DNA of 64,000 bases from the NCBI RefSeq assembly GCF_026210795.1, contig NC_089455.1:62001-126000 (forward strand), read 5' to 3'. A program made the position numbers and the translations under genes. Below the pieces are notes generated by a model, which saw only the letters and a list, made by a program, of their open reading frames with translations, ran no database searches and was not told the DNA's origin. Below are positions 46,224 to 58,860 of the stretch, piece by piece (positions within the stretch are counted from its first letter, which is position 1; every line of letters starts with the position of its first letter). The stretch comes from Rhizophagus irregularis (taxonomy: Eukaryota > Glomeromycota > Glomeromycetes > Glomerales > Glomeraceae).

Positions 46224-46429
46224 CACTGGTTGAAATAGTCCAAATCGGCTAGAAATCAGATGTCCAATTTTAGGCTGAATTTGGTGATAAAGATAGCTGA
46301 ATTGTCAATCCAAAAAAAGTTCTGATTGGCAGGCTGATTGATGCCAATCAGAATGTCCGAATTGTATCTGGATTGCTTAGTATTTTTAATTTGAATTGTT
46401 TAAAAAATATATTCATAAATTTACCAAAT

Positions 46430-46870
46430 TGCAGTGAATTTATTCGAATTATGATAAATTTTAATAAATTGCGATAAATTTTAATTTGAATTACAGTAAA
46501 TTTTAATCTGAATTGTGGTAAATTTTATTCTGAATTGTGATAAATTTTAATCTGAATTGCAGTAAATTTTCTATTCTAAATTGTGGTAAATTTTATTCTG
46601 AATTGCGGTAAATTTAATCTGAATTGCGGTAAATTTTCTATTCTGAATTGTGGTAAATTTAATCTGAATTGTGGTAAATTTTATTCTGAATTGTGGTAAA
46701 TTTATTCTGAATTGTGATAAATTTTATTCTGAATTGCGTCTGAATTGCAGTTAATTTTATTCTGAATTGCATCTGAATTGCAGTAAATTTGATTCTGAAT
46801 TATATTGTAAATTGCAGTAAATTTTATTCTGAATTATATCACAAATTACAGTAAATTTTATTCTGAAAAT
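46430..46870. repeat. Tandem array of about 22-bp units
   Basis: About 20 imperfect copies of TCTGAATTGTGGTAAATTTT (variants GCGG, GCAG). Spacing is 20-25 bp. The array sits just inside the left end of the composite element, where subterminal repeats would be expected. Confidence 0.8.
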
Positions 46871-47149
46871 TTAAAATATTATATATACATATAAAACAAT
46901 TTCACCCAAAAATCAATATTCCAGTTGCCTGAAAAAAAGAAAAAAACTTGAAAGGTGAAGTAGCTCTGTAGCTGTTTAAAATCACCTTACCAAATTTTAA
47001 ATTTCTATGCGTCTAAAAGATCCTAGAATAATGTTAAAAATGTTAATTACGTAAATAATAAAATACTTTTTTATAAAAGTTTTGAATTTTTTTATTTCAG
47101 AACTAATCTGGGAATTCGATATATGTTAAATTCCTTAATTCCCATTCGT

Positions 47150-50100
47150 TTCTACAAATTGAAGATAATTTTCCTATAAAAAAAAAAAAAACATTAAAAT
47201 ACCCTTTTTTTTAAGTTTTAAGTTTCAAAAATCAAATGTTACCTGTAAGATGGCAAATTGGAGCTGATTTCCCTACAAAAAAATAATAAAATATAATAAA
47301 AAATGTTAAATTAAACATTTTTTATTAAGTTTTGTCAAAAAGTTTTGAAAATCAAAACTTTACTTGCAGGATTCTGGTATCCAAATTGGAGCCGATTTTC
47401 CTGCAAAAAAAAATAATAAAAAATAATTAAAAAATGTTAAAATAAATATTTTTTTTATTAAATTTCAAAAATACGAAACTTTACCTATAGGATTGGCCAA
47501 ATCGGAGCTGACTTTCTATAAAAATATAAAAACGTTAAAAATAAATGTTTTTTATGAAAGTTTTGAAGTTAGAAACTTTACCTATAGGATTGGCCAAATC
47601 AGAGCCAATTTCCTATAAAATAATATAAAAAACGTTAAAATTAACATTTTTTTATTAAGTTTCAAAAATATGAAACTTTACCTGTAGATTTGGCCAAATC
47701 GGAGCCTTGTACTTTGGTGTTCTGGACCTACAAAATTAAAAACGAACATTAGTTACCATTCGTTAAAATAAAATAAAAAAAAAATTTTTTTTTTTGAAGT
47801 TTCACCTTCAAAATACCGTCCAGAAGGCTGAAATCCTAAAAAAGGAAGAAAATCAAAACGTTAATTAATGTTTCATTCAAATAAAAAAAAGAAAAAATGC
47901 AGAATTTCGAAGAGATACCTTCAAAATTCTATTCAGACATATGGAAATCAGAAAGCCAAAAACTTAAAATAAAAGAAAATTAAAACGTTAATCAACATTT
48001 CGTTTAAATAAAAATACAAAAAAAAAATGCGAATTTTGAAGAGATATCTTCAAAATTCCATCCAGATATATGGAAACCAAAAAGCCAAAAACCTAAAATA
48101 AAAGAAATCAAAACGTCAGTCAACGTTTTGTTCAAATAAAAAAAGAAAAAAAAACATAAAATTTCGAAGAGTTACCTTTGAATTCCATCCAGATAGACAG
48201 AAACTAGAGAGCCAAAAACCTAAAAAAAAAATTGAGGAGTTCAGAACCTGGTTTCAGATTCCTGCACTTACAAAAAAAGAAAAATTCAAATAAACAAAAG
48301 TTAGTCAATATTTTGTGTATAAAAAAGAAAAAAAAATTTTCTACCTTTAAAATGCTGCTCAGGAAACCATGAACCTACAAAAAGTAAGAACGAATGTTAG
48401 TTGGCATTCGTTAAAATAGAGTAAATAAAATAAAAAATTTCAAAGGTTCATATTTTTGGCGAAATTTGTCTTTCAGCTTTCTGGTCTTACAAAAAATAAG
48501 AACGAATGTTAGTTAATTTTCATCAAATAAACAAAAAAAAACTTTTTTTCAAAAGTTTCACCTTCGAAATACCGTCTAGGAAGCTGAAAACCTAAAAAAA
48601 AAGAAAACTGAAATGTTAGTTAACGTTTCGTTCAAATAAAAAAAGAATAAAAAATCAGAATTTTGAAGAGTACTTTCAAAATTCCATCTAAACATACGGA
48701 AACTGGAGAGTAAACCTAAAAAAAAAAGAAAATAATGAAATGTTAGTCAACGTTTTATTCAAATAAAAAAAGAATAAAAAATCAGAATTTCAAAGAGGTA
48801 CCCTTAAAATTCCATCCAGACATACGAGAACCGAAGAGCCAAAAACCTAAAAAAAAAAGAAATCTGAAACGTTAGCCAATGTTTTGTTCAAATAAAAAAA
48901 GAAAAAAAAATTGGAATTTTGAAGAGATACCTTTAAAATTCCATCCAAACATATGGAAACCGGTGAGATCCCCCAATTCCCTTTGTCATCAATTTACAGA
49001 GTTGCCACATCGAACGGGCATTCCCATGGTCGAACGAACGAATAAACGAACGAACGAACAATTAAACGAGCGAACAATTAATCAACAACATAATTAACAA
49101 ACAATATAATCAACGAACAATATACAACAACATATACAACATTCTTGGTTTACAAAATAAATAGCGTTAGTAATATAAAACATTAAACGATATAAAATAA
49201 ATTTTACTTCTCTAAATTTTCCCCAAATTATATCCACTTTTACCTTTAATTACAAACTTCGATAGCTCTCGCTACGAATTATTACTTTTCAAAAATATAT
49301 ATTTAATTCATCTTAAAATTTTCATTTATTTAATTAAAATTAATTAAGCGAACATTAATTAAAGTTTAGGGCGAACCTATTACCTTTAATTAATATTATA
49401 CTTCATTAACAAATAATTAAATTTAACTTATATTTTTTTATTGAGTTCTGTGGATGAGAACTGTGGAATTACCTTGAATTCCGTTCTCTATATATACAAT
49501 TTTTATGCTACTTCTATTCTATCTATATACTATCTTTTATGTTCTTTATATATTATCTTTGAACTATCTTTCTAATATACTATCTATATTTTAAATACGC
49601 TATCTTTTAATATGCTATCTTATATATTATTTTATATATTATCTTTTCTATTATTCGAATATTACATCGTAAAGAAATAATTTATAACCCATCCTTTGTG
49701 GCTGTGTTATCTTTATATATGTTCTTTTTAATATGTTATCTTTATATTCCATCTTTATACTTTCTTTTCATATTATCTTTTATATTATTTTGTGTTCTTT
49801 AATCTTTCCGACATTATTTTATATGTTCTTTTAATCTACTTTATGTGTTTTGCTTATAATCTATCTTTTGTGGCTTATAATTATTCTTTCTTATCGTTCT
49901 TATTGTTAAAGATCGCTAAGCCGCAAATGATTGACTCTATTTATCCTATTGGTTCTTTGTCAATCATTCAATAAATATTACATCATGTAGATCATTACTC
50001 TTCTTAAATGTTTATCCTTTTCGGCTAATTATTTATCCATCCACACCAATCCACGATTAATTTGTTCGTTCTTAATACTTGATAATTACATTTGGCGGTT

Positions 50101-51345
50101 GAATTTTATCATCCTTTCGTGCTTGATATTCGGCCGTTTACACCGGAAAGCAAAACCTAAAAAAAAAGAAAATTGAAAAAATCAGAATTTCGAAGAAATA
50201 CCTTTAAAATTCCATTCAGACATACGAAAACTGGAAAACCGAAAACCTAAAAAAAAGAAAATCGAAACTTTAGTAATGTTTCGCTAAAATAAAATAAAAT
50301 AAAATAAAATAAAAAAAAATTGAAGTCACCTTCGAAATGGAGTCTAGGATCGTGCCTTCAGTGTTTTGGACCTATAATAGAATAAGAAAACTGAACATTA
50401 AAGAACGTTCGTTAAAAAAAGAAATTTTCGAAGGTTAACTTTGAAATGGGACCGTTCTATACCTATAAAAAAATAAAAAACGAATGTTAGCTAACGTTCG
50501 TTAAATAAAATTAATAAAAAAAATTTCAAAGGTTTATTCCCTTTGAAATGGAGTCCAGCGACATCCTGGACCTACAAAAAAAAAGAAAACAACATTAGTT
50601 ACCTACCTAACGTTCCGCATTAAATAAAAATAAAAAAAATTTTGGACTTTACCTTCCTTTCAAGTCTTCAGAAGGTTTCTAAAAGTAAAAAAGAAATTGG
50701 AACGTTAGTAATATTTACTAACGTTCATAGTTTTAAAAAAATTTCATGTCTCTTTATTTACCTTTTAAGATGTTTTGTCAGTTACGAAGCATCTTAAGGG
50801 TCTACAATAAAAAAATAAGAAAGTGAAACGTTAATAAATGTATACTAATGCTCCAATTTAAAAAAAATAATCCTTTCTACCTGTTCCATTAGTTCCAAGG
50901 TTGCCTAAATAAAATTTTCTGCCATTCGCATGAGAATCAGAATGTAAAATGGTGCAGTTTCTACAAAATAAAGGAATTTTTTTATAAAAAAAAAGAAGGA
51001 TATCCGATAATCTATACTTTATCAGATTTATCAGATATCCGATATTCCATCTGATCAAATTCGATACAAAGCAAAAAAAAGAGCCAGTTTTTGGAAGAAA
51101 AAAAAATACCAGCATACCGATTTACCATTAAAAATTAGGTATATTTTGCAGAAAAAACTTGCCGATTGCTCCAATTGCTTTCTTTTTTTTTCTTAAATTT
51201 TTAAAACTTTTTAAAATCCTTTGATATGTACAAATAAATATTTCATTAAATCGGAATGTCAGAACCTGCAAATAATATAAAAAAATAATAAAAAAAAATA
51301 TTTTTATTATTTTCATTTCGTTACAGTAAATCGGAATGCTGGAAC
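47150..51345 (-). repeat. Minus-strand tandem array of intron-like units with mini-exons
   Basis: Read on the minus strand, more than 20 diverged units repeat this order: T-rich tract, AG acceptor, exon-like block, GT donor, spacer, branch-like CTAAC inside a palindrome (GAACGTTRACTAACGTTC), and the next T tract. Exon-like blocks are often exactly 45 or 30 nt: GTTTTTGGCTTT..GAATTTTGAAG blocks near 48855, 48100, 47975 and 50245, and GTTTTCAGCTTC..TCGAAG blocks near 48590, 48395 and 47855. Translated in phase 0 these stay open, for example VFGFLVSIYLDGILK and VFSFLDGISK. The donor lies in a second palindrome with arms GAATTTTGAAG and CTTCAAAATTC. Some units have lost the splice bases or carry stops. 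A solo LTR (48964-50142) interrupts the array. Confidence 0.75.
48964..50142. mobile_element. Putative solo LTR inside the intron-like array
   Basis: A 1179-bp insertion starts TGAGATCCCC and ends GGCCGTTTACA. It is flanked by CCGG at 48960-48963 and 50143-50146 (ACCGG if the final A is counted). TG..CA ends and a 4-5 bp duplication fit an LTR. It splits one mini-exon of the array, and removing it restores a normal unit. The inside is non-coding, with CGAACGAACG repeats and CTTTTATATTATC-rich sequence. Confidence 0.6.
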
Positions 51346-51667
51346 CTATGAATAATAAAAAAAATTTTTTTTTTCTTCAATACTAGCATACTAAGACTCC
51401 AGAAAATACTTATATAGGTAAGGTCCCAAAAATTTTTTTTATTAGTAGCTCTAAGCATAGGTTTTTATTATGATTACTAAGCATTGTTGATATCTAACCT
51501 TAAAAATTATATAAAAATAAGAAAATCAATCTTCTAACCTAATTAAATTTTTATTATAACACATATAATTTATAAAATATATTTATTAATTAATATATTT
51601 TATTAAATCCAATTTTAAATATGTTGTGAAGCTAAACTAAACATAATATACAAGTAGATTAACAATA

Positions 51668-52027
51668 CAGTCAAACCTTTATATAACGATATGTCAGGAC
51701 ATATATGAAATTTTTAGGAAATATCGTTATATCAAAGTTATATCAATATTTATATGTCCTCACATATAGTTGGAAAATAAAATTTTATCAGTATACAGTC
51801 AAAGTTCTCTATAACGAATCCCATGGGCCGGAGATTAAAATTCGTTATAGTAAGAAATTCGCTATACTAAAAGCCATTTTATTATAAATACTAAGATCTG
51901 TACCTGAACTTTTCTTCATTATAGCAAATTATTCGCTATATAAAAATTTGCTATAGAGAACTTTGAATGTATCAAGTTTTTAATAGTATATTGGTATATC
52001 AAATATCGGTATATCGAGGTTAGACTG
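51668..52027. mobile_element. TA-flanked Tc1/mariner-like element with a second one nested in it
   Basis: The left end CAGTCAAACCTTTATATAAC and the right end ATATCGAGGTTAGACTG are inverted, with TA on both outer sides. Internal words (TATAACGATA, CCTCACATATA) match the element at 9632. It is non-coding. An inner element at 51796-51969 splits it. Confidence 0.65.
51796..51969. mobile_element. Nested TA-flanked element
   Basis: The left end CAGTCAAAGTTCTCTATAAC and the right end GCTATAGAGAACTTTGAATG form an inverted repeat of about 20 bp, flanked by TA at 51794 and 51970. About 174 bp, inserted within the 51668-52027 element and therefore younger. Confidence 0.65.
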
Positions 52028-52036
52028 TATTCAATT

Positions 52037-52615
52037 ATCGCTGTTTTCAAATTAGTGAAACCCCTGTATGTCACCTCTAAGGAAATCGATTTTCAAAAAT
52101 TCACGAAAACCCAGAATTTTTCTGAATAACTATGTAGAAAAAGGTCAATTATTAGCGATTTCCAGAGGAAATCTTGGGAAATTCTCAATTATAAAGGTAG
52201 TTTGCTTATAAAAAAGTGTTTATCACACGTCAAATGATCAAAAATAGGCAAAAAAAATGGCGCAAATCGCATAAACTATTCGCAAATTTGTATAAACTAT
52301 TTACAAATAGTATAGGTTAATTCGTAAATAGCCAAAAACAGCCAAGAATAGCCAAGAATAGCCAAGAATAGCCACTGCTTTTCGCGCCATTTTTTTTGCC
52401 GATTTTTAGCATTTCGACTCGTATCGTTACATAAAGTTTTATCACTTACTTATAAGCAAACTATTCGAATAATGAGAATTCCTGAGATTTCCTCTAGAAA
52501 TCACTAGCAATTGGACCTTTAATACAAAGTTATTCAGAAAAATTCTGGGGTTTCCACATTTGCGAAAACTGATTTTCTTAGTGGGTAACGTGCGTAGCAA
52601 TTTGAAAACAGCGAT
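52037..52615. mobile_element. 579-bp element with inverted arms of roughly 230 bp
   Basis: The ends ATCGCTGTTTTCAAATT and AATTTGAAAACAGCGAT are perfectly inverted. Similarity continues inwards for about 230 bp (CCCAGAATTTTTCTGAATAA, GAGGAAATC, GTTTGCTTATAA, AAAAAAAATGGCGC and their complements). The centre has four AGAATAGCCA repeats. It is non-coding. The long terminal repeats would fold into a large hairpin. The target duplication is not clear. Confidence 0.65.
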
Positions 52616-52639
52616 AATAAAGTTAATAAACAGTAAAAG

Positions 52640-53160
52640 AAAAATCTGAAATTAATATTATTACAAAAAATGTAAATTTCTCCATAAGTATTATACTTAC
52701 ACCCATAAAAATTAATATGTAAGTAGTTTTGACTTTGCTGAACAACTTTCAAAGAAAGTTGATTTCATTTGACCAAAAGGGTGTAATTATGCTCTGAAGT
52801 TGTAAACGAAGAAATGAAAAATTCAGAAGTTAGTATCATTATGAAAAATGCACTTTTTTCCATAAGTATTATACCTACACTCATGAAAATTAATATATAA
52901 GTAGTTTTGACCTTGCTGAACAACTTTCAATTAATTTAGAAAGTCAATTTCATTTGACTGAAGTGGTGTAATTACGCTCTGAAGTTGTAAACAAAAAAGT
53001 GAAAAATTTAAAAGTTATTACCGTTATAAAAAATATGCTTTTCTATATAAATATCATACTTAGCCTTATAAAAATTAAAATACAAGTAGATTTAACTTGC
53101 TGAACAACCTTATTTAAGCATAAAAGATAATTTGATATAACCAAAATGGTGAGTAGTGAA
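52640..53160. repeat. Three diverged copies of a 190-bp repeat
   Basis: Landmarks recur in order three times: AATATGTAAGTAG / AATATATAAGTAG / AAATACAAGTAG, TTGCTGAACAAC (three times), CTGAAGTTGTAAAC and CCATAAGTATTATAC. No ORF. It lies just before the plus-strand intron-like array. Confidence 0.65.
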
Positions 53161-53310
53161 ATTATATTTTAAAGTAAAACATATTTACAGTAATTTTCAC
53201 TAGTCGAAATCAAAACTTTCGGTCATGTGACAAATCGGCTGATCTGTCACACATTTCGGCCAAATTTTGGAAATTATTAAAAATTGGCTAAATTTCGACA
53301 TATATGATTT

Positions 53311-55710
53311 ATTTTTTAATATGAACGGTTACTAACCGTTCTTTTTTTTTTCTTTTTTTATAGGTTCGGCTTTCAGGTGGGCTTCCGAAGTACAGAAACT
53401 CCAAAGATTTATAAGTACGAATACTTTGGAGTTTTATTTTATTTTTTAATATGAACGGTTACTAACCGTTCTTTTTTCTTTCTTTTTTTATAGGTTCAGC
53501 TTTTGGGTGGGCTTCCGAAGTACAGAAACTCCAAAGTATTCGTAAGTACAAATACTTAGTTTTATTTTGTTTTTTTTTTAATATGAACGGTTACTAACCG
53601 TTCTTTTTCTTTTATTTTTTATAGGTTTGGCTTTCGGATGGGACTTTTGAGTTCTGAAGAACGAAAAAAACTAAGATTCGTAAGTATATACGAATCTTGG
53701 TTTTAATTTTTTTGTTTTTTTTAATTTTATTAATGAACAGTTACTAATAACCGTTCTTTTCTTTATTTTTTTAGGTTCAGTGGGCTTTCAAAGAACGAAA
53801 ACCCAAAGATAAAGATTTGTAAGTACGAATCTTTATCTTTTTTTAATTTTTTTTGTTTTTTCTTTATTACGAACGTTACTTAATAACCGTTCTTTTCTTA
53901 TTTTTAGGTTACTGAAGCTTATAACAAGAAAACCCAAAGATAAAGATTTGTAAGTACGAATCTTTATAAATTTATTTTTTTATTTTTTTTTAATAAAATA
54001 CTAGTGTTCACCTGTTGTCTACGACAACGGTTAATATGTAATTCCTTTAAATTAAAAGATCTGCAAAGAATTTCTTTTTTTAAAAATTTGAAAGAACACA
54101 ATTTTTTTAATTTCTCTGAAAAGTAACAGAAGACAAAATTTCCTTTTTTGGAAATTTGTATACCTGACAATTTCCTTTTATGGAATCCTGCATAACTCAA
54201 AATTTCAGTTTTTCGCCAGAAATAAAATTTCCTTTTTTGGTCTTGTATAACATTGGTGACGAATAGGAGTAGGGTTACACAATTCAAATGACTTATTTAT
54301 ATAGTTAATCTAAACATAACGCCCACGTGATTGCAGTATTTTTTAATATATAGATTATGAACAGTTATTAATAACCGTTCTTTCTTTATTTTTTAGATTC
54401 GGGTGGGCTTCTGAAGAATGAAAACCTAAAGATAAAGATTTGTAAGTACGAATCTTTATCTTTTTTTTTATTTTTTTTTAATAAAATATTATGAACGGTT
54501 ACTAAGAACCGTTTTTTTCTTTATTTTTTAGATTCGGGTAGGCTTCTGAAGAACGAAAACTTAAATATAAAGATTCGTAAATACGAATCTTTATCTTTTT
54601 TTTATTTTTTTTAATAAAATATTATGAACGGTTATTAATAACCGTTCTTTCTTTATTTTTTAGATTCAGGTGGGCTTCTGAAGAATGAAAACTTAAAAAT
54701 AAAGATTCGTAAATACGAATCTTTATCTTTTTTTTTATTTTTTTTAATAAAATATTATGAACGGTTATTAATAACCGTTCTTTCTTTATTTTTTAGATTT
54801 AGGTAGACTTCTGAAGAACGAAAACCTAAAGATAAAGATTTGTAAGTACGAATCTTTATCTTTTTTTTATTTTTTTTTAATAAAATATTATGAACGGTTA
54901 CTTAATAACTGTTCTTTTCTTTATTTTTAAGTTCCGGTGGGGCTTTCGAAGAATGAAAACCCAAACATAAAGATTCTAAGTACGAATCTTTACTTTTTTT
55001 TTATTTTTTTTAATAAAATATTATGAACGGTTACTAATAACCGTTCTTTTCTTTATTTTTTAGGTTCCGGTGGGCTTCTGAAAATCGGAAAAATGAGAAC
55101 CTTTAAGATTCGTAAGTAATATACTTGTGAATCTTTTTTTTTAAATGTTATGGAACGGTTACTAACCGTTTTTTTTAATTTTTTTTTATAGGTTTGGCGT
55201 CTCAGAGTTTCCGAAGAATGAAAGCCCAAAAAATTCGTAAGTACGAATCTTTACCTTGTTTTTTTTCTTATTATTACGAATGGTTTACTAACCATTCTTG
55301 TATTTTTTTTATAGGTTCGTGAACAGAAAACCAAGATTCGTAAGTACGAATTTTGGTTTATTATTTATTATTTTTTTTAATATTATTATGAACAGTTACT
55401 AATAACCGTTCATTTTCTTTTATTAGGTTTCAGGATCTTTGGAAAAAGTGGAACCAAGATTCGTAAGTACGAGTATGAATCTTTGGTTTATTTTTTATTT
55501 TTAATATTATTATGAACGGTTATTAATAACCGTTTTTTCTTTTCTTTTTTATAGGTTTAGTGTTTCAGGCGGATTCTAAAGAACAGAAAAAAACCAAAGA
55601 TTCGTAAGTAGAATCTTGGTTTTTTTTTTGCTTTTTTTTAATATTTTGAATGGTTACTAACCGTTCTTTTCTTTTTTATAGTTTCGGTGGGTTTCCAAAA
55701 AATCAAGATT
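53311..55710 (+). repeat. Plus-strand tandem array of intron-like units with mini-exons
   Basis: About 16-17 units of 110-150 bp. A typical unit has GAACGGTTACTAACCGTTC (first at 53323-53341, a palindrome with TACTAAC at its centre), a T/C-rich tract, TTTTATAG or TTTTTTAG, an exon-like block starting GTTCGG or ATTCGG, and a donor inside GATTCGTAAGTACGAATC (arms GATTCGTA/TACGAATC). Exon-like blocks are 42-55 nt and exactly 45 nt in four consecutive units (54407-54842). Joined, those four read as a 15-residue repeat, SGGLLKNENLKIKI plus one joining residue, without stops. Other units have shifted lengths or stops. The whole array faces outward to the right end of the composite element, mirroring the minus-strand array. 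Confidence 0.8.
53990..54345. mobile_element. Insertion within the plus-strand array
   Basis: About 350 bp of unrelated sequence between two array units. It contains imperfect repeats of AAATTTCCTTTTTTGG and a 107-codon minus-strand frame that looks fortuitous. The boundaries are approximate. No clear terminal repeats were found. Confidence 0.35.
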
Positions 55711-56081
55711 CGGAATACATGAATTATGTGATTGTGGAATTGTAGATTAGTAATACTTATTTGTAAAATGCATTTATAAATAAAGTTGTGATTTTATTGT
55801 GAATATCAAATAAAATGAGTTGTGGCCGAATATTAGTAAATAAATGTAAATTAAAATTTGCAACATAAAATAAGTAACATTCGGAATACTATTCACCAAA
55901 ATTTGCTATCTGAAATTAGTCCGAATGTTAACTGAATTTTGGCCGAAATTTCAAGCTGAACTTTAGGCGAGTAGAGCGAATTGCAGCCAAAAAATCGGCT
56001 AAAGTTCGATCAGCATTAGACTATAAATCAGCCTAAATCAGCTGGCTGAATTTTGGCCAATTTGGACTATTTTGACTAGTG

Positions 56082-57010
56082 TTTATTTAACAAAATAAAC
56101 TTATATAATATAGTAATTTTATATTAAAAATAATACACTGAGTTTAATAAAAATTAAAAAGATACTATTGAAAGATAATTAATAAAACATTGAAAAAAAA
56201 ACTGAAATTTCATTAAAAAAAAATTTTTGTTTGTGTATTTATATAAAATTGTAAAATATAGTACAAAATTAACACTTACCGTTAGTGAAAATAAAATAAA
56301 AATTAATTATAAATTCAATATATAATATTTTAAAAAGTTCTATAACTATGAAAAATAAGCAACTAAAAACTCTTAGTAATTTAAAATAATACCAAAAATA
56401 TGTAATTTAATTATCTTACATAGTATAAAATTTTCTCAAAATTAAGCATTATAAAATTCTTACATTATAAAATTTTTCTATGTTGGCTAAGCACCTTGGT
56501 ATTTTACATATATAAGCATTTTCCAGGATCCTTGCATACTGATATTTATCAAATCAGAAAAAATTGAGATTCTTTTGTCAATTCACCAATTTAAACCATA
56601 GAGCAATAAAAGAAAATATTTTGTTTTGGAAAAAAAAAGTTAAAAGATTAAAAGTTTTAAACTACAGATTAATATTTATCCAAAAGAAGCAAAAGAAGGT
56701 AAAAATTATACTTTTATTAATATAATACGCATCACGTCTTATTATAATTGATCAGCAAATAGTAAATGTTATAATAGTTTAATTTTGATTGATACCCAAT
56801 TGAAAAATGAGCAAATTTCTTACTATTGAATAAATCAGGTGACAGATTATGATTTAGACTATTATATAGTTTAAATCATCTAACAATAATATATATTAGG
56901 GACTGTTCATGTAATTTTAATAAAGATAACCGAATATTTATTATTTATCATAAATTACATATATCAATAATATGAAAAGATTCAACCATAAATCATTCAA
57001 TATCATATAT
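56082..57010. other. Gene-free AT-rich region
   Basis: About 0.9 kb with no coding frame, RNA gene or clear repeat. Confidence 0.5.
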
Positions 57011-57023
57011 GTCTTATTTCAAT

Positions 57024-57970
57024 CAGTATGCCACAAATCAGAAGTGCTGATTTGTAATTTTAACCAATATTAAGCAAATTTTAGGCTGATTTGCCATTTG
57101 TCCAATTTTTTTTTGTTTAACTAGTAGCATCAATCAGAAATCAAATATGATGATTTTCTGCTGAATTTTTGTTGAATTTTTATTGAATTTTAATAATGTA
57201 TCAAATTTCCATAAATCAGAAATGCTGATTTGTAATTTTAGCCAATTTTGAGTAAATTTTAGGTTGATTTGCCATTTTGTCTGATTTTTTTTTGATTTCA
57301 ACCAGTATCAATCAGCCGTTAATCAAATATGATGATTTTTTTGCCAAATTTTTATTAAATTTTTATTAAATTTTTATTAAATTGTCAATTTTCCATAAAT
57401 CTGAAGTATCATATTTGAATATTAGGTAAATTTTAAGTTGATTTGCCATTTTGTCTGATTTTTTTTTTGATTTCAATTAGCATCAATCAGCCGTCAATCA
57501 AATATAATAATTTTTTGCTAAATTTTTATCAAATTTTTATTGAATTTTTATTTAATTGTCAATTTTCCATAAATTGGAAGTGCATATTTAAATATTGGGT
57601 AAATTTTAAGTTGATTTGCCATTTTGTCTGATTTTTTTTTTATTTCAATCAGCATCAATCAGCCGTCAATCAAATATAATAATTTTTTGCCAAATTTTTA
57701 TTGAATTTTTATTGAATTGTTAATTTTCCATAAATTGGAAGTGCATATTTAAATATTGGGCAAATTTTAAGTTGATTTGCCATTTGTTTGATTTTTTTTT
57801 GATTTTAACTAGCATCAATCAGCCGTCAATCAAATATGATGATTTTTTGCTAGATTTTTATTAAATTGTCTGATTGGTATCAATCAGATGTGCCGATTTG
57901 TAATTTCAGTCAATTTTTGTCTAATTTTTGGCTGATTTTTTATATATCCGATTTTTTTGATTTTGACCAG
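57024..57970. repeat. Tandem array of about 170-bp units ending in an element-like terminus
   Basis: Five to six copies begin at about 57024, 57210, 57390, 57558 and 57727. Shared words are CCATAAATYRGAAGTG, GTAAATTTTAAGTTGATTTG, CCATTTTGTCTGATTTTT and CAATCAGCCGTCAATCAAA. The array ends GATTTTTTTGATTTTGACCAGTG, resembling the right end of the 46-56 kb element. It is non-coding and probably the subterminal repeat of a related element. Confidence 0.7.
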
Positions 57971-58860
57971 TGAAACTTAATTGCTAAAACTATTTTTATG
58001 CTTTTCCAAAACTAATTATAATTTAGAAAAGTTTTGGATTTACTAATTTTTTCATTAAAAATAAAGTTTTTGAGTTTTGGATTTTTAAATTTTATTGTTA
58101 AATGAGTTTTGGGTAGCAACATTAATGATATCAAATATTTGCTATATCTGCTAATCAGTACTATCTAATAAAAGCTAAATAATGTTCAGTAAGTCCATTT
58201 AGTAAATTAATTTCATGTTTGAAATAATACTGAACTTATCCAGAATAATGATTAACTTCTCTATTAGTCGTTATGAATTTGGCCAATACATATGAACTTT
58301 TTATGTATCAAAATGATAACATAGAGTTAAATACCTCAAATACAATATGACATCTTTCAAATTTATCCATTTTTATATAAATAGTTATTACATCTTGCTT
58401 TATAGCATTAGATAATTTTCAGAAATTATACATTTCATAGTAGATTTCTGAATATTTTTTGAATTTAGCTAAAACCTTTTCATTTTATTTGAAGCGTTAT
58501 TTTTTAAATTTAACTAAAATCTTTTTATTTTATCTAAAGTATTATTTTTAAATTTAACTAAAATCTTTCTATTTCATCTAAAGTGAATTGATTATTTTCT
58601 GATAATAATTCAATAATAGGATGATTTTTGAGTAATTTAAAACCTTTTATTTGAGTAGGACCCTGGACAATTATAATCAAGATCATATTCCTTATATTAA
58701 GAATTTTTAAAAATTTATTATTGCCATTTTGAATTTATTTTAAAAGATATAAATGTAAAATTTTAATAAAATAGGTACCTTCCTACTATTTATAACTTTG
58801 TAATTTAAAAAAGTATATTTAATAATGTAATTTTTATTTTTTTGAATATTTTTATGTATA
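57971..58860. other. Gene-free region
   Basis: AT-rich. Around 58455-58590, AATTTAACTAAAATCTTT-like words repeat about three times, 50 bp apart. No gene is recognised. Confidence 0.45.

Follow-up and report, generated by a model that had tools for sequence, protein, structure and literature searches.

A tandem array of intron-like units forms one part, the body, of a terminal-inverted-repeat DNA transposon, and it is near-certain that the array is not free-standing. The window, the whole stretch of DNA that was analyzed (C27:62001-126000, 64,000 nucleotides), contains one copy of this transposon, here designated family A. Family A is probably a non-autonomous CACTA-like cut-and-paste transposon, with a body composed of tandem non-coding units, each consisting of a U2-type intron (∼87 nt) and a mini-exon. 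From their sequence, the units are likely to be spliced in the host. The genome searched comprises 146,748,485 bases in 32 contigs, and the features of the window are collected in Table 1.

Table 1. Coordinates of family A and family D features in the window
Feature	Position	Strand	Remarks
Family A element, terminal-inverted-repeat DNA transposon with CACTA-type ends	53198..56081 (2884 bp)	+	Genome-wide flank matches stop at or near both positions; boundaries and target-site duplication by script
Left terminal inverted repeat	53198..53210	+	CACTAGTCGAAAT; CACTGGTCGAAAT in most copies
Right terminal inverted repeat	56069..56081	+	ATTTTGACTAGTG
Target-site duplication, left copy	53195..53197	+	TTT; T-rich site, weak taken alone
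Target-site duplication, right copy	56082..56084	+	TTT
Array block 1	53311..53990	+	Five intron/mini-exon units
Predicted exons, block 1	53364-53410, 53494-53541, 53625-53679, 53775-53818, 53908-53949	+	
Non-array stretch splitting the array in the window copy	54000..54340	none	By eye
Array block 2	54344..55727	+	Eleven units
Predicted exons, block 2, first six	54397-54441, 54532-54576, 54664-54708, 54797-54841, 54932-54975, 55064-55111	+	
Predicted exons, block 2, last five	55192-55236, 55315-55339, 55427-55462, 55555-55603, 55682 onward	+	
Tail beyond the last acceptor	55728..55830	+	AATAAA motifs (poly(A)-signal-like) at ∼55779 and ∼55809; by eye
Family D element around the family A element	46224..57972 (11749 bp)	-	Related terminal inverted repeat; target-site duplication AAA/AAA
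Family D array	46900..51000	-	Diverged intron/mini-exon units

Ends, copies and transposase

The element boundaries were located by searching the genome with the sequences flanking the array. With the left flank as query, 40 of 164 candidates were scored, including the window copy, and the 39 non-self matches start at query positions 38-54, most of them at 47-50 (window 53196-53199). None of the 39 begins more than 11 bases away from the start of the element, and each of them ends at 53312, the boundary of the array. With the right flank as query, 40 of 78 candidates were scored, and most matches end a few bases from 56081. A further 28 copies were fetched on the basis that both ends lie on one strand within ∼7 kb (a demand that selects full-length copies), and were taken together with the window copy. 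An exact 3-bp target-site duplication (TSD) is found directly outside the CACTGGTC...GACCAGTG-type ends in 25 of these 29 full-length copies, with varied sequences (AAT, ATT, TGA, CCC, TGG, AGA and others), and is missing in L011, L017, L021 and L026. The 29 elements are 2.2-7.1 kb long, and every one contains the array, with 9-19 units each. Two longer copies (L029/L030 and L031/L032) lie outside the 29-copy TSD count. The preliminary description had offered, as one of two readings, a repeat family that acquired splice signals; the intron/mini-exon build of the units is supported, as are the dispersal of the family and its spread together with the exons. The description had overlooked both the position of the array between terminal inverted repeats (TIRs) with a TSD, and the palindromes that contain two of the splice signals.

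The family A terminus is mostly CACTG, and CACTA in the window copy; CACTG ends occur within the CACTA superfamily. TIRs of the CACT(A/G) form are common to families A, B and D, with CACTGGTC- or CACTAGTC-type ends and single-base variants in some copies. Such ends, together with a 3-bp duplication, fit the CACTA superfamily as portrayed in passages of two papers (PMC2613891, PMC4219821). Repeated motifs are present in family A, but they fill the body.

None of the tnp2 transposase (PF02992) matches listed for the genome falls within the 28 family A loci (by eye), and the window element has no open frame longer than 110 aa, as expected of a non-autonomous copy. A 6.4-kb CACTA element at L042 (395-6838) encodes a tnp2 frame of 774 aa (PF02992, E 7.8e-18) between CACTGGTC ends flanked by the TSD ATT. 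It has 11 terminal bases in common with family A, including the same terminal octamer. Since L042 is the only one of the seven transposase loci fetched (L042-L048) with a CACTGGTC end pair and TSD, and only 11 terminal bases are common, a mobilizing partner of family A stays hypothetical. L011, with 7 kb between family A ends, was considered as an autonomous copy and rejected, because its coding part comes from another family, with relatives (L035-L037) that lack the branch hairpin. This coding insert (L011 1656-4913) belongs to another repeat family, with 145 genome matches to one of its frames and no confident Pfam match. A further long insert, from ∼2000 in L031 to ∼6500 in L032, looks Polinton-like by eye, its frames resembling DNA polymerase B, ATPase and integrase. 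A long palindrome, AAAAGTTTAAAAAAGGATCATCCTTTTTTAAACTTTT, lies ∼170-210 bp from the left end and ahead of a pyrimidine-rich stretch in several family A copies, L017 among them; it is interrupted in L005 and L020.

The predicted intron/mini-exon unit and its hairpins

Sixteen units make up the array of the window copy on the plus strand (53311-55727), in agreement with the ∼16 units first reported; a non-array stretch separates the first five from the other eleven. The array is also detected by TRF. The non-array stretch is possibly a small nested element; a 17th hairpin match within it, at 54026, was dropped and is not a unit. A tail with AATAAA motifs comparable to that of the window copy is present in the eight copies inspected.

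The preliminary description assigned to each unit the words TACTAAC, TATAG or TTTAG, and GTAAGT. The acceptor holds, with TAG in 15 of 16 units, as does a branch motif of the general form YTNAY (15 of 16, counted by eye), while the exact words are less regular: TACTAAC occurs in only 6 of 16 units, the others having TACTAAT, TATTAAT and similar (counted by eye), and GTAAGT in 11 of 16. With two instances of GTAAAT, the GT donors amount to 13 of 16; units 1 and 11 have ATAAGT and CTAAGT, and the best donor match of the last unit is GTGATT. A consistent absence of the donor from the last unit, considered early on, was refuted by GTAAGT in the last unit of seven of the eight copies inspected; L023 has ATAAGT at this site, and GTAAGT is absent there in the window copy, L033 and L034.

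The order and spacing of the signals, also claimed at the outset, are confirmed by a strict ordered pattern (YTRAY, no AG, YAG, 25-60 nt, GTA[AT]G), for which the window element has 11 hits on its array strand and 0 on the opposite strand (mean 0.28 and maximum 2 in 40 dinucleotide shuffles). The corresponding counts are 326 vs 3 in the 28 related family A copies, and 13 vs 0 in the family B copy L033.

Units were parsed in 35 sequences, comprising the window copy and L001-L034 (the arrayless L035-L037 and later loci were excluded). Of 512 branch hairpins found, 509 gave parsed units, all of which contain the branch hairpin by construction, because units were located by it. The acceptor is TAG in 495 of the 509, and the first AG lies 12-25 nt past the branch hairpin in 503. 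The donor was called as the best match within range, with a scoring that favored GT, and by this measure GT is present in 470/509 units (GTAAGT 319, GTAAGA 54, GTAAAT 31, with ATAAGT in 27). The predicted introns have a median length of 87 nt and a range of 73-105 nt (n=359). For comparison, introns in one actin-family gene of the host measure roughly 50-125 nt and have donors of the form GTGAGT or similar to GTAAAT (by eye, approximate).

Clustering of the 449 complete units yielded 22 unit types with ≥4 members, together 405 units. Their consensuses have mini-exons of 36-56 nt, and retain the TAG acceptor in 22/22 types and YTNAY in 22/22 (one type is misparsed, with its own hairpin still within the tested stretch). 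An earlier count of GT in 22/22 types took GT sites only, so that it held by construction, and it was repeated without that demand. The best donors are then GTAAGT in 17 and GTAAGA in 4 of the 22 types, the remaining one having GTATGA in place of GTAAG; shuffled units contain GTAAG in a mean of 0.7/22 (maximum 4). The units thus have a GT donor, branch motif, pyrimidine tract and AG acceptor in the order and spacing of a U2-type intron.

Two of these signals lie within palindromes. The branch motif is inside the palindrome GAACGGTTAC-TAACCGTTC, and the donor inside AAAGATTCGTAAGTACGAATCTTT, which spans the exon end and the donor as AAAGATTC-GTAAGTAC-GAATCTTT; the TAG acceptor and the pyrimidine tract are outside both. 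The exact 19-mer of the branch palindrome has 165 occurrences in the genome (0 for the reversed control), and RNA folding of three unit-length stretches gave z-scores of -3.54, -3.39 and -2.91. When the loop is left unrestricted, 494 branch hairpins are found, of which 397 have CTRAY on the array strand and 0 on the opposite one; the looser YTNAY is found in 478 and 94, respectively. An earlier loop pattern that omitted G, and therefore favored one strand, had given 407 vs 0.

At the donor, the exon-end 6-mer has its complement within ∼20 nt downstream (≤1 mismatch) in 338/409 units, vs 68/409 for interior exon 6-mers. The stems vary by unit type (CCAAGATTC/GAATCTTGG, CCAAGTTTC/GAAACTTGG, AAAGATTC/GAATCTTT), as do the loops (GTAAGTAC, GTAA, GTAAGTAAGTAC, GTAAGTATATAC and others). 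The two arms of a type pair at 7.55 of 8 bases, vs 6.68 of 8 when arms are swapped between types; the value for a type's own arms is reached by 0/10000 permutations (one misparsed type included). Most donors therefore sit at a hairpin with co-varying arms. Hairpins over donor sites usually hinder splicing.

The suggestion that splice bases should be better conserved than their neighbors is supported by the unit types, where they are kept almost throughout, and not by decayed copies. In the 263 donor sites (of 600) that have the same loop, losses number 26 for the donor G and 27 for the base that mirrors it. A raw mirror test on the donor (33 vs 153 mismatches) was discarded because it mixed loop-length variants; its effect is gone in the same-loop subset. 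In 511 copies of the branch hairpin, six of the nine mirrored positions show no difference, positions 3 and 8 have more losses on the arm that bears the branch motif (30 vs 3 and 10 vs 0), and position 9 has fewer there (42 vs 97). Among 154 distinct branch hairpins, position 3 alone falls below p 0.05, again being worse kept on the branch-bearing arm. Dead copies would decay neutrally after landing, so that equal decay leaves room for selection on the source copies. When five exons were joined into a 190-nt query, 121 matches were obtained with 40 of 41 candidates scored; 0 of them cross an exon junction, and no spliced genomic copy was found.

Families B and D

Two further families have ends related to those of family A and a common layout, family D more loosely. 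Family B (L033 and L034) starts with CACTAGTCGAAAAAGG or a one-base variant and contains units of the family A kind, with GTATAC before the first acceptor. Both elements have TSDs, TAT and GGC (2/2, by eye). End searches scored 40 of 134 candidates at one end and 40 of 111 at the other, and many of the right ends are 95-98% identical, suggesting recent spread. Nearby transposase matches were the reason for fetching L033, L034, L038 and L039; of these, L033, L034 and L039 (cut off) are subfamily B elements, and L038 shows one unit and the right end. The family B elements at L033 and L034 lie near tnp2 transposase matches, and as they were chosen for this closeness, no enrichment is claimed.

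In the window, the family A element is nested inside an 11.7-kb family D element. Family D (L051) and family A (L005) are identical over the outermost 18 bases on the left, and on the right they agree at 25 of the outermost 26. A TSD is present in three of four family D elements (AAA in the window, ACT in L050 and GAT in L051) and absent in L049. The units are diverged from those of family A, the longest match being 69% over 216 nt among the matches listed. The strict pattern gives 2, 1 and 2 hits in three family D sequences, vs shuffle maxima of 3, 1 and 2. A looser pattern was picked after inspecting family D, and as a post hoc choice provides weaker evidence. With 100 shuffles each, it gives 9 hits in the whole window element (shuffle mean 1.17, maximum 7), 9 in its array part (0.75, maximum 3), 3 in L051 (0.11, maximum 2), 12 in L050 (0.31, maximum 2) and 10 in L049 (0.37, maximum 2), with 0 on the opposite strand of each sequence. 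One unit type of family D has its donor ahead of the hairpin and not in the loop (by eye).

Family D also contains repeats of other kinds. In its left subterminal part (window 57519-57867; L051 3062-3720), a TIR-like unit of 160-175 bp, TGCTGGTTGAAATCAAA..., forms a tandem repeat, giving the impression that the end of the transposon was itself amplified. Near the right end, a 22-bp repeat, TTTATTCTGAATTGTGGTAAAT, in tandem (window 46427-46867; a similar block is found in L051) could be a putative subterminal binding-site array. Three adjacent units of L051 (4680-4960) share a lost donor, CATGCAAAG for CAGGTAAAG, which suggests local multiplication of units after mutation.

Proposed mechanism, rival explanations and known systems

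In the proposed mechanism, the array would be transcribed from left to right, as suggested by a pyrimidine-rich stretch before the first acceptor and by the AATAAA motifs near the right end, close to which the transcript would terminate. Pyrimidine-rich stretches precede the starts of many fungal genes; that of family A is seen in the copies inspected and is lost in the window copy. In the typical unit, the exon end and the beginning of the intron pair into a hairpin with the donor GTAAG at the start of its loop; a second hairpin, inside the intron, has the branch motif in its loop region. A spliceable body might let the element lie in, or produce, transcripts without long unspliced filler, and an autonomous CACTA relative would presumably mobilize family A in trans. 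It may well be, although with slightly less than even odds, that families A, B and D form a CACTA-like clade of an arbuscular mycorrhizal fungus in which the body came to yield a spliced, non-coding transcript of many exons, its donors and branch sites placed in hairpins. These elements would then be selfish multipliers of intron/mini-exon cassettes that use the host spliceosome in their life cycle.

The main rival explanation is that the palindromes act in DNA, as overgrown CACTA subterminal repeats that bind transposase or an accessory protein, with the splice words as unused by-products of palindrome cores and T-rich spacers. There is precedent for this, as TNPA-like proteins bind subterminal motifs of CACTA elements that are repeated and can form stem-loops, according to passages of two papers (PMC2613891, PMC4219821). 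The co-varying arms of the donor hairpin fit such a role, as do the equal conservation of most mirrored branch-hairpin positions on both arms and the unfavored donor G in decayed copies. It does not account for the TAG acceptor and pyrimidine tract, which are outside the palindromes yet kept in 22/22 unit types, for the strand-specific order of the signals (326 vs 3 in 28 copies; CTRAY 397 vs 0), or for repeats that fill the body beyond the ends, and the family D unit type with its donor before the hairpin (by eye) also argues against it. We therefore consider it unlikely as the explanation of the array, although a DNA-binding role of the hairpins may hold alongside splicing. Descent of an ordinary AT-rich satellite from one chance unit, with splice-like words recurring by copying, is considerably less probable. 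The units are indeed AT-rich and related by descent, and repeats do copy chance words, but here the words are kept even where stem, loop and exon vary from one unit type to another, the stems co-vary, and the sister family D keeps the layout, although 69% over 216 nt is its longest listed match to family A.

Introner-like elements, in which the whole element would be one intron of a host gene, provide a parallel in that TIRs, TSDs and element-borne splice signals are known in introners, as stated in passages of one paper (PMC9860276). In family A, the signals are internal, repeated 9-19 times and absent from the ends, and the 29 elements span 2.2-7.1 kb, making this reading slightly less probable than the satellite. 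The preliminary description had supposed that the repeat is removable from whatever transcript it has entered; this is not supported, and self-removal of a whole family A element by splicing is improbable, because in the six copies inspected no GTAAG-type donor lies ahead of the first acceptor (by eye). Least probable of all is the other reading first put forward, taken as a gene whose many mini-exons would encode a repetitive protein. Exon lengths leave remainders of 0, 1 and 2 in 199, 90 and 120 cases (n=409), so that the frame shifts from unit to unit, although the class with remainder 0 is the largest. The longest open frame of the joined exons is below the best of 50 shuffles in 35/35 sequences (by a single residue in L020, L027 and L033). 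Stop triplets on the exon strand of 356 distinct exons are fewer than in shuffles (487 vs 538.6, sd 12.0), as a coding sequence would have it, but the reverse strand has fewer still (254). The mini-exons are non-coding, and the gene reading, in its coding sense, is abandoned.

If the units are spliced, family A would exemplify a DNA transposon able to bring as many as ∼19 intron cassettes to a new place in one step, and would be a direct source of new exons and introns. It would also offer a natural series of hairpin-held donors and branch sites, in which the effects of RNA structure on splicing could be studied. Transposons that become introns are already known. Searches of the open-access literature listed no described element that has a body of ready-made introns and exons.

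Several known systems share features with family A. Introners are likewise mobile DNA with splice signals, some with TIRs and TSDs in the passages available (PMC9860276), but supply one intron per insertion, whereas each family A element has many tandem introns and exons. Stwintrons are fungal, sequence-similar introns with symmetrical forms, as described in parts of two papers (PMC8469720, PMC9024468); they are nested introns, in contrast to the tandem arrays with mini-exons of family A. The CMC families annotated in R. irregularis, Plavaka among them, belong to the same superfamily and, probably, the same species, judging from passages of the annotation paper (PMC11075540). According to these passages, that annotation accepted DNA families only when a transposase domain was matched, and its MITEs had lengths of 50 bp to 1 kb (PMC11075540); as so described, both are set apart from family A, the elements of which are longer and have no domain found. 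With CACTA elements (En/Spm, CMC), family A shares CACT-type TIRs, a 3-bp TSD and internal stem-loop repeats, in addition to the octamer common to the tnp2 element found here. It differs from them in having no transposase found and in its unidirectional, body-filling repeats with a full intron grammar. Family A is CACTA-like by its ends and new by its body.
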